NCBI GenBank assembly: GCA_019745975.1
Contig: JAIESQ010000123.1
Location: 1 to 62,914, forward strand
DNA from: Pirellulales bacterium
GTDB taxonomy: Bacteria; Planctomycetota; Planctomycetia; Pirellulales; JAEUIK01
Length of the DNA stretch: 62,914 bases
Reading direction: 5' to 3'
Shown in pieces: positions 5,016 to 31,161 of the stretch. Both the position numbers and the translations under genes were made by a program. Position 1 is the stretch's first letter; each line of letters starts with the position of its first letter. The notes below the pieces were generated by a model. The model was not told where the DNA came from. It did not search any database and saw nothing but the letters and a program-made list of their open reading frames with translations.

Positions 5016-5088
5016 GGGGACGGGAGTCGTTTCCGGGCAACGACCAAGCGCGACGGGAAGACGTAGACCGGAAACGACTCCCGTCCCC
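5016..5088. repeat. Hairpin with 21-bp perfect arms
   Basis: The arms at 5016-5036 (begins GGGGACGGGAGTCG) and 5068-5088 (ends CGACTCCCGTCCCC) are exact reverse complements over 21 bases, with a 31-base loop. There is no T-run, so it does not look like a terminator. It resembles a small palindromic dispersed element. Confidence 0.8.
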
Positions 5089-5173
5089 CTCCGCGCGAAA
5101 TCGGCCACGACGTTGTCCCAACAACCGGCGCCCGATCAAGTTGCGCCCCCAGCGCGTGGCCATTTTCTGGCTC

Positions 5174-5201
5174 TTGACAAATGATCACAAATGTGTACAG
5201 T
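5174..5201 (+). promoter_or_regulatory. Promoter-like site in repeat A
   Basis: TTGACA (5174-5179), a 16-base spacer and TACAGT (5196-5201) match a sigma-70 type promoter reading rightwards into the repeat. The same pair and spacing are kept in copy B on the minus strand (20748-20775). No coding frame follows, so any product would be a non-coding RNA. Expression is unproven. Confidence 0.5.
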
Positions 5202-5239
5202 AATAGGTGCGAGACCTGAGAAGGAAGTCGCGCGGGTGC

Positions 5240-5264
5240 CATGTCCACGCTTGTCGTGGACATG
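5240..5264. repeat. 25-base palindrome in repeat A
   Basis: CATGTCCACG, loop CTTGT, CGTGGACATG. The copy in repeat B has C/G in place of the T/A pair in both arms, so pairing is kept. Confidence 0.8.
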
Positions 5265-5469
5265 CCTGCGATCGATCCCCTGAAAACTGAACACTGAAAA
5301 CTATCCACAACAGGAGAAAACCTGGCGCGCCAGCCTGCGCGCTGACAACACCGACCAGACATGCATCTCACCCAAGGACTTCGCGGTTCAATGAACCGTT
5401 TGTTTGAGTCGGAGCCGAGAGCTGCGTCCGCCCTGCGCGCTGCGACCGAGTTGCCGTGACGGTCGGCTT

Positions 5470-5500
5470 GTTAGCCGCGGGATTTATCCCGCGCGCTAGC
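5470..5500. repeat. REP-like palindrome (GGGAT stem) in A
   Basis: Begins GTTAGCCGCGGGAT, has a short T-rich loop and ends ATCCCGCGCGCTAGC. It pairs head-to-head with the element at 5553-5583; the two enclose about 50 bases. Confidence 0.75.
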
Positions 5501-5552
5501 TCGTAGGACGTTTCGACTGCGTTCACGCTCGTCGCAGTACGGCACCGGACGA

Positions 5553-5583
5553 GCTAGCGCGCGGAGCAAGCTCCGCGGCTAAC
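5553..5583. repeat. REP-like palindrome (GGAGC stem) in A
   Basis: Begins GCTAGCGCGCGGAGC and ends GCTCCGCGGCTAAC, a near-perfect hairpin with an AA loop. It has the same outer GCTAGC/GCTAAC ends as 5470-5500 but a different inner stem. Further copies lie in repeats B and C and alone at 33486-33516. Confidence 0.8.
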
Positions 5584-5861
5584 GAGTTCTTAGGACGCAA
5601 AACTGCCCTTAGGACGATCTAGGACGCAAGTGTTTTTGATTTTGCGTCCTAAAATAACTCGTTGCTGCGAAAAGACTTAACTACTTTTGACAGCCGCTTA
5701 GGACGGTTAGGACGCAAATTCCCGGATAACTTTATTCTGGGGGCCCCCCAGGTGGGGACAGGTCCACGCGTGCGGCTCACAGCTCACCGCCGACGCCGGG
5801 ACGCGAAACGCCCGCCGCGATGCCACGCACGGGTTAGGACCCGAAACCTCGCAGGAACGCT

Positions 5862-20119: not shown

Positions 20120-20446
20120 GATTGCGGATCGGCTTATGAACTGCGGAGTCTAGCGTGCATAGTTCCCTCAGCCTTGGGGGTCCCCCCAGAATAAGATTGC
20201 CCGGGAATTTGCGTCCTAACCGTCCTAAGCGGCTGTCAAAAGTAGTTAAGTCATGTCACAGAAACGAGTTATTTTAGGACGCAAAATCAAAAACCGTTGC
20301 GTCCTAGATCGTCCTAAGCGCGGTTTTGCGTCCTAAGAGCTCGTTAGCCGCGGAGCTTGCTCCGCGCGCTAGCTCGTCCGGCGCCGTACTGCGACGAGCG
20401 TGAACGCAGTCGAAACGTCCTACGAGCTAGCGCGGCGATGTTATTA

Positions 20447-20471
20447 GCTTGGACCCGCAAGCGGTCCAAGC
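20447..20471. repeat. Hairpin nested inside repeat B
   Basis: GCTTGGACC, loop, GGTCCAAGC (read on the minus strand). It interrupts the REP-like palindrome that is whole in copy A. Confidence 0.7.
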
Positions 20472-20684
20472 GATCCCACGGCTAACCAGTTGATCGTCGC
20501 GGCAACTCGGTCGCAGCGCGCACTGCGGACGCAGCTCTCGGGTCCGACTCAAACAGACGGTTCATTGAACCGCGAAGCCCTTGGGTGAGATGCGTGGCTG
20601 GTTGGTGTTTTCAGCGCGCAGGCTGGCGCGCCAGGTTTTCTCCGGTGGTGGATAGTTTTCAGTGTTCAGCGGACCGATCGCAGG

Positions 20685-20709
20685 CATGCCCACGACAAGC
20701 GTGGGCATG
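20685..20709. repeat. 25-base palindrome in repeat B
   Basis: CATGCCCACG, loop, CGTGGGCATG: the counterpart of 5240-5264, with a paired T-A to C-G change. Confidence 0.8.
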
Positions 20710-20747
20710 GCACCCGCGCGAATTCCTTCTCAAGTCTCGCACCTATT

Positions 20748-20775
20748 ACTGTACACATTTGTGACCATTTGTCAA
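20748..20775 (-). promoter_or_regulatory. Promoter-like site in repeat B
   Basis: On the minus strand, TTGACA (20770-20775), a 16-base spacer and TACAGT (20748-20753), reading into the repeat exactly as in copy A. Confidence 0.5.
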
Positions 20776-20929
20776 GGGCCAGAAAATGGCCACGCGCGAG
20801 GGGCACAAGTTGATCGGGCGCCGGTTGTTGGGACAGCGCCCTGGCCGATGCCGCGCGCGGAGGGGGGCTCGTTTGCAGCGCCGAGTCGACCTTGCAAAGA
20901 TGTCCCGACCGCTTTGTTCTCTCAGCGAC

Positions 20930-24238: not shown

Positions 24239-24419
24239 GAAGGATTCGCGCGCGCCGCTCACGCTTGCTGCTCGTTACCTGCAGTCTGCGGACTGAAGTC
24301 TGCAGCCTGCTTACACGCTTCTTCCCAAGGGCTTCGCGATTCGTGCGAATCGTTTGTCAAAGTTGGGACCGAAAAGCTGCGTAGAGCGTGCGCGCTGAAA
24401 AACCCGACCCATCACGCCC

Positions 24420-24760
24420 AGGGACTTCGCGATTCACCGAGTCGTTTGTCAAAGTCGGGACCGAAGCTGGGTCCGCCCCGCGCGCGAAGCTTGTTAGCCG
24501 CGGAGCTTGCTCCGCGCGCTAGCGTGCTCGACGCTGAATTGAACCTCGCGCGAGCTAGCGCGCGGGATAAATCCCGCGGCTAACGATCCCGCACGCGTTC
24601 TTGGACGCAAAACGGACGTTGGACGCAACTTGGACGCATGTCCCCGACGATTTGCGTCCAAAAATAACTCGATGTTTAGAAAGGACTTAACCGCTTGTAA
24701 CAGCCTCGTTGGACGCATTGGACGCAAATCTCCGGACAATCTTTTTCTGGGCCCCCCCGT
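24420..24760 (+). repeat. Composite repeat, partial copy C
   Basis: Matches the right-hand part of repeat A: the ACTTCGCGATTC block, a head-to-head pair of GTTAGCC/GCTAGC palindromes (24493-24523 and 24554-24584) and the word module ending in TTTTTCTGGG plus a C run. The promoter-like part is absent. Every TAGGACG word of A/B is TTGGACG here (24601, 24619, 24630, 24709, 24718), and the inverted copy (24651-24661) is changed to match. The two palindrome stem types occur in the opposite order to copy A. Confidence 0.8.
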
Positions 24761-26600: not shown

Positions 26601-27275
26601 ATGAGCAAACTAGCAGTCAACATGCCGCGCACAAGCTCGCAGGCTGGCGAACCGGAGTTCGCCAGCTTGAGCGACGAGGCGTTGCTGTTGCGCTACAGGG
26701 AAGAAGCCGACGAGCGCGCGTTCGCGGAGCTGGTACGTCGTTACGAACGAGAACTGTACAGCTACTTGCGGCGGTATTTGGGCAGTGCCGAAATGGCCGA
26801 GGATGCCTTCCAAGCGACGTTCCTTCAGGTTCACCTGAAGTGCGATCGATTTGAGGAGGGGCGGCGGTTTCGGCCCTGGCTCTATACCATTGCGACGAAC
26901 CAGGCGATCGACGCCCAACGGCGCAATCGCCGGCACAAGCTGATGAGCCTCGATCGGCGACACTCCCATGGCTCAGACGGGGAAGACGCCGGTGCCTTGG
27001 CCGACTTGCTGAGGGCCGACGTCGCCGACCCCACGGGGGACATGGAGGCAGCCGAGCGGACGACTTGGATTCGCGACGCCGTGGCGGGTCTGTCCGCAGA
27101 TTTGCGCGCGGTCGTGGCGTTGATTTATTATCAGGGAATGAAGTATCGGGAAGCAGCCGACGTACTGAAGATTCCGGTCGGCACTGTGAAAAGTCGCATG
27201 CATAGCGCGGTCCTCAAGCTGCACGAAGCTTGGACCCGCCGTCACCCCGGTGAAGAGATACCTAGCGATGCGTGA
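26601..27275 (+). CDS. ECF-type RNA polymerase sigma factor
   Basis: A 224-residue sigma-70 family protein. Region 2 spans about residues 28-105 (DEALLLRYREEADERAFAEL, then EDAFQATFLQVHLKCDRFEE and RPWLYTIATNQAIDAQRRNR), the -10 recognition and core-binding part. Region 4 spans about 160-215 (LSADLRAVVALIYYQGMKYR, EAADVLKIPVGTVKSRMHSA), the -35 helix-turn-helix. AGGA lies 6 bases before the ATG. The following anti-sigma-like gene overlaps its 3' end by eight bases, so the pair is co-transcribed. Confidence 0.92.
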   Translation: MSKLAVNMPRTSSQAGEPEFASLSDEALLLRYREEADERAFAELVRRYERELYSYLRRYLGSAEMAEDAFQATFLQVHLKCDRFEEGRRFRPWLYTIATNQAIDAQRRNRRHKLMSLDRRHSHGSDGEDAGALADLLRADVADPTGDMEAAERTTWIRDAVAGLSADLRAVVALIYYQGMKYREAADVLKIPVGTVKSRMHSAVLKLHEAWTRRHPGEEIPSDA

Positions 27276-28257
27276 CGAACTAGTTGGCTATCTCGTGGGC
27301 GCGTTGGAACCCCACGAGCACGCCGCCGTCGAAGACCGTTTGCGCCGCGATCCGCAGTTGCACGATGCACTGTGCGAACTTCGGGGCTGCCTCGCGCCAT
27401 TGGGATTCGATGGCGGTCACTTTGAGCCGCCGGCCCACCTCGTGCAAAGTACCTGCGACTATGTCGCGGATCGGCGGGCGCTGGTGCCGTGGCGCGACTA
27501 TGCCACGTCGGCGAGCGGGCGGTTTTCGGTGCAAGACTTGATGACGGCGGCCGGCGTTGTCGTGGCGGCGTCGCTGTTGTTCTTTCCGGCGGTCAACTAT
27601 AGCCGTGGCCAGGCCGAAATTGCCGGCTGCCAGAACAGCCTGCGGCAATTGGCCAGCGCGATGCTCAGCTACAGCAATTTGCACGATCGCTATTTTCCGC
27701 ACGGCACGAGCAGCACTGCGATCGCTTCGACGGGGATGTATGCCCCGATCTTGCACGAGCGGGGATTCGTGAAGAATCCGCGCGTCTTCGTTTGCCCGGC
27801 CGCGGCCAGGCGACATGGCGCCATCGTGCGCATACCTACGCTCAAGGAAGTTGAACAAGCCAGTCCGGCCGCTTTGGCCCGGCTCGAGGAAACGATGGGG
27901 GGCGACTACCGGACCACGCTCGGTTACATCAAGGACGAGATCTACCACCCCGTGCGCAATGCCCACCGCGAGTACTTTGCCATTCTGTCCGACGCGCCAG
28001 GGCATGATGGCGACCGCCAGAGCCCGAATCATGGTGGACTTGGTCAGAACGTGCTTTTTGACGATGGTCACGCCCAGTTCATGAGCACGTGCCGCTGCCG
28101 GCCCGATGGCAGCTACGTGCCGGCGACTTACCACGACAACATTTTCTCGAACGACCACGGCGATGTCGGGTTCGGGCTGCATGCCGACGACTCGGTGATC
28201 GCCCGCGGGCATTTCCGGGCTACCGTTCCGGTTTATCCGGCCAGCAGCGCGCAGTAG
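27268..28257 (+). CDS. Anti-sigma-like / DUF1559-like membrane protein
   Basis: A 329-residue protein. Residues 1-55 (RDELVGYLVGALEPHEHAAV, then RLRRDPQLHDALCELRGCL) look like the cytoplasmic domain of anti-sigma factors, though a canonical HxxxCxxC zinc motif is not complete. A TM helix lies at about 90-112 (LMTAAGVVVAASLLFFPAVN). The external part resembles DUF1559/pseudopilin-type sequences: CQNSLRQLASAMLSYSNLHD, and H-G-G-L-G-Q-N-V-L-F-D-D-G-H near the end, close to the H-X9-DG motif. The ATG at 27268 is preferred; the frame is open from a GTG at 27250. It probably holds the sigma factor at the membrane and senses an external signal. Confidence 0.75.
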   Translation: MRDELVGYLVGALEPHEHAAVEDRLRRDPQLHDALCELRGCLAPLGFDGGHFEPPAHLVQSTCDYVADRRALVPWRDYATSASGRFSVQDLMTAAGVVVAASLLFFPAVNYSRGQAEIAGCQNSLRQLASAMLSYSNLHDRYFPHGTSSTAIASTGMYAPILHERGFVKNPRVFVCPAAARRHGAIVRIPTLKEVEQASPAALARLEETMGGDYRTTLGYIKDEIYHPVRNAHREYFAILSDAPGHDGDRQSPNHGGLGQNVLFDDGHAQFMSTCRCRPDGSYVPATYHDNIFSNDHGDVGFGLHADDSVIARGHFRATVPVYPASSAQ

Positions 28258-28509
28258 CGACGTTTCTGATCGGTTTCTGCGTGCCGGGAATCTCCTTTCT
28301 TTGCCGCACCATCGTTGTCGGCCCGCCGGCCTGTATGCGCGAAACGCCGGATGATCGTCCCCAGTGCCATCGTAGCTACCGGTGAGATTTCTTTAAGTAA
28401 CAATTCCGGCGTCTTTTCGCCATGCCTGCTGAGGCGGTCAGTTCGATCGCCGCGGCAGATAAACTCGCACCTTTCAATCATCGCTGCGGATAGCAGCAAG
28501 GAGTCTGCA

Positions 28510-28737
28510 ATGTCGCTGAATAAGAAGCTCACCCTCAAGAAGGACACGGTTCGCGCTTTGTCGGGCACCGAAATGCAAGGCGTCGTCGGCGGCGTGAATT
28601 ATGCCCTGATCCGCGCCGCGGACGCGGCCACAGGACACTGTGGCATCTGCACGAAGAGCTGTGCAACTTGCGGTTGCCCCAAGCGTGATTTCGGCAACGT
28701 GATTCTGCCCGCCTTCAATCAGTTGCGCGCTTTCTAG
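28510..28737 (+). CDS. Class I lanthipeptide-like RiPP precursor
   Basis: A 75-residue peptide. The leader has the motif L-T-L-K-K-D-T-V-R-A-L-S-G-T-E-M-Q-G-V-V-G-G (residues 7-28), close to the L-x-L-K-K-x-T-x-x-x-L...GG leaders of class I lanthipeptide precursors in Bacteroidetes and related phyla. Cleavage after Gly28 would release a 47-residue core with five Cys (44, 47, 51, 54, 56) and Thr41, Thr48, Ser50 and Thr53 as possible dehydration sites. AAGGAG lies 6 bases before the ATG, and a strong terminator follows (28764-28808), so it looks highly expressed as its own unit. No LanB/LanC or ABC exporter is visible; the flavin enzyme and HlyD adaptor follow. Confidence 0.75.
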   Translation: MSLNKKLTLKKDTVRALSGTEMQGVVGGVNYALIRAADAATGHCGICTKSCATCGCPKRDFGNVILPAFNQLRAF

Positions 28738-28763
28738 CGTATTCGTCGGGTCGTGGTTTCCTG

Positions 28764-28808
28764 AACCGGCGGAACGATGCCATCGGGTGTTGTTCCGCCG
28801 GTTTTTCT
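28764..28808 (+). terminator. Rho-independent terminator after precursor peptide
   Basis: AACCGGCGGAAC (28764-28775) pairs exactly with GTTCCGCCGGTT (28792-28803), followed by a T-rich end (28802-28808). It would end the short precursor transcript before the LLM gene. Confidence 0.85.
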
Positions 28809-28920
28809 TGCGCTGCGACCGCGCCCGGATGCGCGCAACAGCGTGTAACAGTTCAACTGGACTTGCGCCAAATGGATTGCCGAGACCCGATCGACGATCC
28901 CCCGCCACAGGGAGCCTGCC

Positions 28921-29877
28921 ATGCTGCGTGCCGCGACGAGCGAACCCACCGCGTTAAAGCTCGGTGTGATGGATTTCTGGTCTCCGCTCGAATTGACCTT
29001 TCGCCTGGCGCCCTTGGTCGATTCACTTGGCTTTAACCGCTACTGGCTGGCCGAGCATCCGCCCCAGCCCAATCCACAGATCGCCGCGGCCTTGATTGCC
29101 GGATTAACGGAGCGAATTCGTGTCGGCACCGCGGGAGTTTGTCTCTCGGTGCACAACGCGTTTCAATTGGCCAACGATTTTCTGTTGCTCGAGCGGCTCT
29201 TTCCCGGTCGCATCGACGCCGGCTTCTGCGGTGGCGGAGCCTCGGGTTTGTGGGCTGAAGCCTTGCTCGAAGGGCGGCCTGATGCCAACCGCGACCCAGC
29301 GGTCTTCGCGGCCAAAACCGATCAATTGATTCATACCCTGCGTGGCGACATGCCGGCCGGCGACCGCTTCGCCGGGCTCGAACCTTGGCGCGAGCGCGGT
29401 GGCACACCCGAAATCTGGAGTTTGGGCACCGGCCCGCGCAGCGCGACACTCGCCGCCGAGCGTGGCATCTCGTTTGGCTATTCGCTATTCCACCACTTCA
29501 GTCGCGACGACACGACAGCCGTGGAGATCTACCGACAACAGTTCCAATCCAAAACCGCGGCCGCCGCGCCGCAAGTTGTGCTGGCCGTGGCTGGTGTTTG
29601 TGCGGAAACCAAGGCTGGCGCCCGAACGTTCGTCGCTGCACACCGCAACGAATTTATCGTGCCGACGATTGTCGGGACACCCGAACAATGTCGCGATCAG
29701 TTGGAGCTGTTGGCCGATCGTTATGACGTTCGCGAATTCGTGTTTCTTGATGTCGCCCCGGATGCCAAGTCGCGGCTGCGTTCTTACGAGTTGCTGGCCG
29801 AAGCTTGCGGACTCGTCGCGTCGGCCACCGACAACTCGGACACCGCGCCCACCGTAATTGCTACCGCTGCCGGTTAG
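28921..29877 (+). CDS. LLM-class (luciferase-like) flavin oxidoreductase
   Basis: A 318-residue TIM-barrel flavoenzyme of the bacterial luciferase family. Motifs include LGVMDFWSPLELTFRLAPLV, GFNRYWLAEHPP, ERIRVGTAGVCLSVHNAFQL (with a VHN-type segment), ERLFPGRIDAGFCGGGASG and IVGTPEQCRDQLELLADRYD near the C terminus. FMN or F420 could be the cofactor; this cannot be told from sequence by eye. GGGAG lies 8 bases before the ATG. It stands between the GG-leader precursor and the HlyD adaptor, so a role in modifying the peptide (oxidation or reduction, as LanJ-type enzymes do) is possible but unproven. Confidence 0.82.
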   Translation: MLRAATSEPTALKLGVMDFWSPLELTFRLAPLVDSLGFNRYWLAEHPPQPNPQIAAALIAGLTERIRVGTAGVCLSVHNAFQLANDFLLLERLFPGRIDAGFCGGGASGLWAEALLEGRPDANRDPAVFAAKTDQLIHTLRGDMPAGDRFAGLEPWRERGGTPEIWSLGTGPRSATLAAERGISFGYSLFHHFSRDDTTAVEIYRQQFQSKTAAAAPQVVLAVAGVCAETKAGARTFVAAHRNEFIVPTIVGTPEQCRDQLELLADRYDVREFVFLDVAPDAKSRLRSYELLAEACGLVASATDNSDTAPTVIATAAG

Positions 29878-29916: not shown

Positions 29917-31161
29917 ATGAACAAGCTTGACCTCGTCGATCAACGTCCTCGTCCGCGTTTCGCGCTGGTGCCCTTGTGGGTCGCTTCCATCCTCGCCGTG
30001 CTGGGTATCCTGGCGCTGGTTTTCTTGAAAGTGAACCGCGTGGTACAAGGACGTGGTGTCCTGGTACCGCCATCAAACTCAGTCAAGGTGGCGGTCGCGC
30101 GTCCTGGTACCGTGGCGGCAATTCTGGTGAAAGAAGGTCAGCGGGTCGCAGCCGGCGAAGTGCTCGCGCGGCTCGACGATCGCGAGGACAAGGCGGCCGT
30201 CGAAGCGCTGTCGGCACAAGTCGCGGCCGCTGAACTGGAAATCGTTCGCCGCGATGAGCTGGCTACCCACCGCGAGGGAGTCAATCGGCTGAAACGCGAA
30301 CAACTGGTGAGCGAGCGAGCTGTCGAGCAAGCGGCGCTGCCGTCGCTCGAGGCCGACGCCGCGCGCAACGGGCGCGACCGCGAGCGCAACGCCCGCGAGC
30401 TAGCCAAGAAGCAATCGCTCGCCCAGCGCCAAGTCGTCACCGAATCGGAACTGGATAAGACGACCGCCGAGGCCGATCGCGCACTGGCCGAACAGGTGCA
30501 ACTCGATTCGCAATTGGCGAAAGCCCGGCTCACGATCAATCAACTTCGCCAGAAGATCGACGGCGTGGCGACCGAAGCCGCCGTCGAAACCCTGCAAGAT
30601 GAACTGGCCGAGCTCGAAGCCCGCCGCAACCTGGCGACTCTCCACCGCCAACTGGCCGAAGCGCAATTGAAGCTCGAACGCGCCACGATCAAAGCTCCCG
30701 TGGCTGGCACCGTACACGCTTTGGCGATCCGCGCTGCCGGCGAACAAGTTCGCGATGCCGACGTCATCTGCCGCCTGGTTCCGCCCGAGATCGGTATGTT
30801 GGCCGAAATTGAGTTACCCGCTGCCGATATCGCCTTTGTTCACAACGGGCAGCAAGCCCGCGTGAAAGTCGACGCCTTTCCGTTCGCCGACTACGGCGCC
30901 GTGTTGGGAAGCATCGAGTACGTCGCTCCCGATGCCGATCCGCAAACCGCCGGCGATCGCAAGCGCCGCCCGGTTTACATCGTACGGGTGCGCGTCGACG
31001 ACGCTGAATTCCTGGCACGCGTTGCCGAGAAGCAACCCGGCCGCGAGCCGCGTTTGCGTCCTGGCATGACGCTGACCGCCGAGCTCGTCAACCGTCGGGA
31101 GACACTCGGGGCGCTGTTGTTCAAGCCGCTACGTTCCGCCAGTGGCGAAGTGGGACTCTAG
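29917..31161 (+). CDS. HlyD-family membrane-fusion (periplasmic adaptor) protein
   Basis: A 414-residue protein with an N-terminal TM helix (about 16-37, LVPLWVASILAVLGILALVF), a split lipoyl/barrel-sandwich domain (VKVAVARPGTVAAILVKEGQ and KLERATIKAPVAGTVHALAI) and a long coiled-coil hairpin between them (about 90-240) rich in Ala, Glu, Arg and Gln. It is the periplasmic adaptor of a peptide or type I exporter. The partner ATPase/permease is not in the window. GGAGAG lies 7 bases before the ATG; the gap from the LLM gene is only 39 bases, so the two are likely co-transcribed. Confidence 0.85.
   Translation: MNKLDLVDQRPRPRFALVPLWVASILAVLGILALVFLKVNRVVQGRGVLVPPSNSVKVAVARPGTVAAILVKEGQRVAAGEVLARLDDREDKAAVEALSAQVAAAELEIVRRDELATHREGVNRLKREQLVSERAVEQAALPSLEADAARNGRDRERNARELAKKQSLAQRQVVTESELDKTTAEADRALAEQVQLDSQLAKARLTINQLRQKIDGVATEAAVETLQDELAELEARRNLATLHRQLAEAQLKLERATIKAPVAGTVHALAIRAAGEQVRDADVICRLVPPEIGMLAEIELPAADIAFVHNGQQARVKVDAFPFADYGAVLGSIEYVAPDADPQTAGDRKRRPVYIVRVRVDDAEFLARVAEKQPGREPRLRPGMTLTAELVNRRETLGALLFKPLRSASGEVGL

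Follow-up and report, generated by a model that had tools for sequence, protein, structure and literature searches.

The stretch of DNA analysed here (hereafter the window) comprises positions 1–62,914 of contig JAIESQ010000123.1 from a Pirellulales bacterium (GCA_019745975.1; genome G000), a draft assembly of 7.0 Mb in 204 contigs in which the contig of the window is designated C174. It carries a predicted gene for a class I lanthipeptide precursor, together with its expression signals and four flanking genes whose involvement is putative only:

26601..27275, + strand: ECF sigma factor (domain/family search)
27250..28257, + strand: protein with an anti-sigma-like N-terminus (NF052375, 45.6 bits, under the cut-off of 100)
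28498..28503, + strand: Shine–Dalgarno sequence AAGGAG, six bases upstream of the ATG
28510..28737, + strand: class I lanthipeptide precursor gene (LanA-like), 75 aa (translation, leader models, codon score)
28510..28593, + strand: leader, residues 1–28, L7-x-L9-x-K11-x5-L17 ... G27-G28 (NF038153, NF038158)
28594..28734, + strand: core and tail, residues 29–75 (translation; [ST]xxC permutation)
28763..28810, + strand: intrinsic terminator, a 19-pair hairpin followed by a T-run (folding compared with shuffles)
28921..29877, + strand: MsnO8-family luciferase-like monooxygenase, beyond the terminator (TIGR03558, 179 bits, cut-off 166.95)
29917..31161, + strand: HlyD-family adaptor (family search; 27–31% identity to four HlyD proteins of C39 exporters)

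The frame of the precursor gene scored +0.17 per codon for codon usage, whereas the values of the other five frames ranged from −0.73 to −0.01. The terminator 3′ of the gene looks real: the hairpin at 28763–28804 has a folding energy of −34.8 kcal/mol (z=−6.1), equal stability was reached in 0 of 200 shuffles and a T-run follows, although a simple consensus scan had missed it. Translation, these signals and the leader models described below together bear out the precursor reported in a first-pass annotation of this DNA, including its strong Shine–Dalgarno sequence and its own terminator. The 75-residue peptide matched no Pfam family at E 0.01 and no PADLOC family, protein searches returned no match in 116 relatives or in plasmids, and an initial pattern scan of the genome contigs with the precursor found no relative.

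The leader was identified by two NCBIfam models, one of them the class I lanthipeptide leader model NF038153 (30.0 bits, cut-off 22, residues 2–28; E=2.3 × 10−6 across the six frames of the 7.0-Mb genome) and the other NF038158 (29.7 bits, cut-off 27, residues 5–28). This match lies far above chance; a control search with NF038153 at the loose limit of E 1 gave matches in 3 of 14 named genomes, and none of the 14 had a match over the cut-off. The leader carries the LxLxKx5L motif (L7, L9, K11 and L17) and ends in Gly-Gly (G27, G28), as the first-pass annotation had read it (a GG leader of the L-x-L-K-K-x-T...L type), and it keeps K6, L9, T13, L17 and G28, the columns that are invariant across nine aligned leaders. 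Four precursors of this genome retain the same pattern, as do precursors near LanB genes elsewhere, so the possibility raised earlier that the GG leader might prove unconserved did not materialize. The mersacidin/lichenicidin-type class II model TIGR03898 was absent from the four NCBIfam matches of the precursor at E up to 1, and the nisin-type FxLD motif is absent from its sequence. Walker et al. 2020 (PMC7268733) describe the combination of LxLxKx5L and GG in Bacteroidetes, for class I precursors whose clusters often include a C39 protease. By leader score and motif, the peptide is thus predicted to be a class I lanthipeptide precursor with an L1a leader (NF038153), and the suggestion that it might represent a new RiPP class is unsupported, since the leader belongs to this known type.

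The core bears Thr41, Thr48, Ser50 and Thr53 and, as described previously, Cys at 44, 47, 51, 54 and 56 with Ser/Thr nearby; the C-terminal tail (residues 57–75) is free of Cys. The Cys spacing is CxxCx3CxxCxC, and the Cys and Ser/Thr residues are placed suitably for ring formation. Three [ST]xxC motifs are present, a number reached in 0.26% of 20,000 shuffles of the whole core and in 2.6% of 20,000 shuffles of the Cys segment alone. As judged from the searches across the 116 relatives, the core sequence is new.

Among the flanking genes, the HlyD adaptor at 29917–31161 was absent from the earlier annotation. It was considered as an exporter part and left out because of its low identity to the four C39-exporter HlyD proteins (27–31%) and because neither of its neighbouring genes encodes an ABC protein. 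The monooxygenase gave no match at E 1 × 10−30 in the 39 other relatives searched and hence appears to be as local as the precursor. A sigma-70-type gene and the gene that follows it adjoin precursors both in the window (26601–28257) and in another genome of the phylum, G317 (locus L056, 13076–14343), where the second gene of the pair has no Pfam match at E 1 × 10−5; the recurrence hints that expression may be sigma-controlled. A dispersed, apparently intergenic repeat family also occurs in the window (5085–5752, 20172–20866 and 24315–24758), with pieces of at least 100 bases being about 66–93% identical; it recurs on contigs C43, C83 and C154, on the first two of these near the precursors and the exporter described below.

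Candidate enzymes with the expected domains are present in the rest of the genome. PF14028, PF05147 and PF03412 had no match on C174 at E up to 0.01 and all of their matches fell on other contigs, in agreement with the earlier statement that the window holds no LanB, LanC or C39 exporter. The only PF14028 (LanB) match of the genome lies on contig C145, as does the only LANC_like match over the cut-off, a second one, under the cut-off, being part of a LanM on contig C124. The LanB of C145 (1,091 aa) contains both Pfam domains, with PF04738 in full, and its structure matches include 9g04, 5ehk and NisB (4wd9, 6m7y). The 446-aa LanC adjoins it in the same orientation and matches the structures 8byk and NisC (2g02); its WCYG and CHG motifs align with those of 8byk and presumably hold the zinc ligands. 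A passage of PMC10352776 names a C-gap-CH triad, which agrees with the zinc-ligand reading. In a LanB tree the C145 protein was placed with low support (68/29), and long branches as well as compositional unevenness were flagged. Contamination was considered for C145 and is thought unlikely, because the tetranucleotide composition of the LanB–LanC segment fits the window (0.911, where thirteen 4.7-kb segments taken from the window itself gave 0.843–0.922).

Three C39 peptidase matches (PF03412) over the cut-off were found in the genome, on contigs C83, C154 and C191. On C83, a 744-aa C39-ABC protein is followed by HlyD; it shares 34% identity with the C154 protein, the other large C39-ABC protein of the genome. 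A GG-leader exporter is thus present in the genome and lacking on C174. A reference for its assignment is a locus of about 9 kb in phylum genome G403 (L055), in which HlyD, C39-ABC, LanA (L055:5544–5762), LanC and LanB follow one another. The same five kinds of gene are found in G000, with identities of 44% for LanB, 38% for LanC, 54% for the C83 ABC protein (over 720 residues) and 40% for the C83 HlyD. Because of the last two values, the C83 transporter is preferred as the exporter and is the best candidate for cleavage at Gly-Gly and export. The first-pass annotation had called the precursor orphan-looking and had pointed to enzymes encoded elsewhere as one possibility: the term holds for its neighbourhood and fails for the genome, where the leader-model searches and the searches for LanB, LanC and C39 exporters proposed at the time now give a lanthipeptide-type leader on C174, LanB and LanC on C145 and a C39 exporter on C83.

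Whereas G403 keeps all five genes together, the parts in G000 are distributed over five contigs, with precursors on C174, C43 and C106, LanC–LanB on C145 and the exporter with HlyD on C83; LanB and LanC are accordingly not in the gene cluster of the precursor. On C174, 28.5 kb precede the window precursor and at least 34 kb follow it, and the closer end of C145 is 9.2 kb away from the LanC–LanB pair; whichever way the contigs are joined, precursor and pair are therefore separated by at least about 37 kb. The C106 precursor lies 7.2 kb inside its contig. Both the C43 precursors (1.5–2.2 kb) and the C83 exporter (3.6 kb) are near contig ends of the draft, which makes the separation of these two uncertain; it could be about 5 kb. 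When nine stretches from contig and window ends were compared (excluding the right-hand ends of C83, C145 and C106), only C43 and C124 had sequence in common, namely 75 bases oriented as expected of a repeat present on both and not of a join.

To place the leader and LanB in a wider context, both were surveyed in other genomes. Across 117 relatives (G000 included), the leader family and PF14028 each occurred in one genome, G000. Across 392 genomes of the phylum (G000 included), PF14028 was found in seven and the leader, counted at E up to 0.02, in five, with four genomes (G000, G403, G317 and G417) having both (hypergeometric P=1.8 × 10−7, or 8.0 × 10−6 without G000, assuming the same 392 genomes in both searches). 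The leader exceeded the cut-off in three genomes, all of which also have PF14028. Three of the seven LanB genomes (G121, G187 and G327) gave no leader match and one genome, G266, has a leader match under the cut-off and no LanB, both of which count against our preferred explanation; the two leader matches of G417 are also under the cut-off. Leader and LanB are clustered in G403, in G317 (LanB with two precursors at a distance of about 0.5 kb) and in G417 (two precursors adjoining LanC), and apart in G000, which makes G000 the odd one among the examined phylum genomes that have both.

A leader-pattern scan of 14 named loci extended this picture. The closest named LanB (43% identity) belongs to a Spartobacteria MAG and is surrounded by three LxLxKx5L precursors at distances of up to about 4 kb; all three fall short of the NF038153 cut-off, which again counts against the preferred explanation. 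GG precursors were also found at up to about 7 kb from LanB in the two Hymenobacter loci and at up to about 2 kb in the Rheinheimera-type loci L027, L028, L029 and L031, while the Chitinophaga pinensis locus (L030) contained no clear GG precursor. Given this co-location, across the named loci and the phylum genomes, the leader pattern and this type of LanB belong together.

The window precursor has relatives in its own genome, two on C43 (E=1.5 × 10−6 and 3.4 × 10−4) and one on C106 (E=0.0085). A profile of nine leaders, four from this genome and five from others, recovered the four precursors (by construction) and no fifth at E up to 10, and none were found among open reading frames of 25–200 aa on C145:1–20000 or C83:1–14000. 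The NF038153 score is 30.0 bits for the window precursor and 24.1 for that of C106, both over the cut-off; of the C43 pair one scores 15.7 and the other has no match. The two adjoining C43 copies (L006 1473–2181) are near duplicates (87.6% over 145 bases) and look like a recent duplication whose cores already differ. An IKTN[ST] motif before a Cys is common to three of the four cores (the C43 pair and C106), and one Spartobacteria MAG precursor contains IRPNTYETC; the window core lacks the motif. No upstream motif beyond what shuffles gave was shared among the five units compared. The low C43 scores, the missing core motif and the missing upstream motif all weigh against the explanation we prefer, as do the lack of a match in the 116 relatives and the draft state of the assembly.

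A second lanthipeptide locus lies on contig C124 (L021, 5067–9697). It encodes an MNIO enzyme (PF05114, 163 bits), a 250-aa protein that matched nothing in Pfam, a precursor of the mersacidin/lichenicidin type (TIGR03898, 60.9 bits) and a LanM of 855 aa, which has an entire DUF4135 dehydratase domain and a LanC-like half of which only the first part is matched. The pairing of an MNIO with a LanM whose cyclase is cut down appears unusual; in the main text of one MNIO survey (PMC12452194), the term LanM is not used.

Taken together, we consider it probable that the window gene encodes a class I lanthipeptide precursor that is modified in trans by the C145 LanB and LanC and exported through C83. 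The LanB/LanC pair would bind the LxLxKx5L leader; LanB would dehydrate some of Thr41, Thr48, Ser50 and Thr53, and LanC would close thioether rings to some of the five Cys residues, for which T41–C44, T48–C51, S50–C54 and T53–C56 would be fitting pairs. The C39-peptidase ABC transporter of C83, with its HlyD, would then cut after Gly27–Gly28 and export the product, and the same machinery probably serves the three other precursors on C43 and C106 too. Whether at least four divergent precursors from three contigs share the stand-alone LanC–LanB pair as a hub, giving a small class I lanthipeptide library with the unlinked C39 transporter as common exit, we regard as evenly balanced.

Modification of this GG-leader RiPP by an enzyme other than LanB/LanC, such as a radical-SAM enzyme or the neighbouring flavin monooxygenase, is improbable: the precursor does match TIGR04149, a family of radical-SAM-modified GG RiPPs, at 17.2 bits and the luciferase-like monooxygenase starts 183 bases downstream, but that match stays under its cut-off of 25 while the lanthipeptide models score over theirs, a strong terminator stands between the two genes, and the leader tracks LanB across the phylum. 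We give equally little credence to a stranded relic, meaning a copy of a precursor gene that has ceased to yield a product. Such a copy would fit the missing match in 116 relatives, a core unlike the three others and a contig on which no lanthipeptide enzyme was found with PF14028, PF05147 or PF03412; the frame is nevertheless intact, with coding-like codon use, a Shine–Dalgarno sequence and a terminator, the leader retains the residues invariant in nine leaders, and four Ser/Thr and five Cys keep a ring-like spacing. A small Cys-rich metal-binding protein with a coincidental GG leader, to which CxxCx3CxxCxC could belong, is very improbable given the genome-wide E value of the leader, the leaders of the same pattern near LanB in other genomes and the lack of a Pfam family for the peptide at E 0.01.

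Several known systems come close to this one. The LxLxKx5L-GG class I lanthipeptides of PMC7268733 share with it the leader motif, LanB with LanC and C39 for GG leaders, but that set was from Bacteroidetes and was sought within seven genes of lanC, whereas here the host is a planctomycete, as gene kinds such as DUF1501 also suggest, and the precursor is on another contig than the enzymes; the same paper notes nisin-like precursors that lie over seven genes away from lanC and names the pinensins of Chitinophaga pinensis as the sole lanthipeptides isolated from Bacteroidetes at that time. The pinensins are class I products of Bacteroidetes, and the C. pinensis LanB was among the relatives that we found (35%). 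Pathways with unclustered proteases (PMC8960859) likewise have a step encoded elsewhere in the genome; there it is the protease that is unclustered, and here the precursor, the dehydratase–cyclase pair and the exporter are all apart. The scattered layout is the unusual part. It is known for the class II prochlorosins, many of whose precursors lie far from the single synthetase ProcM (PMC7268733), and the hub reading would be the class I counterpart of that arrangement, with LanB/LanC and an L1a leader in place of a LanM and Nif11-type leaders. Among the literature matches listed, as far as the excerpts extend, none dealt with scattered class I precursors.

Lanthipeptides are commonly mined beside LanC or LanB, and a class I system with scattered parts would therefore be invisible to one-cluster mining. 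Searching whole genomes leader-first could bring in substrates from phyla regarded as poor in lanthipeptides and, if the hub reading is true, a LanB/LanC pair accepting four different cores would be a useful engineering tool.
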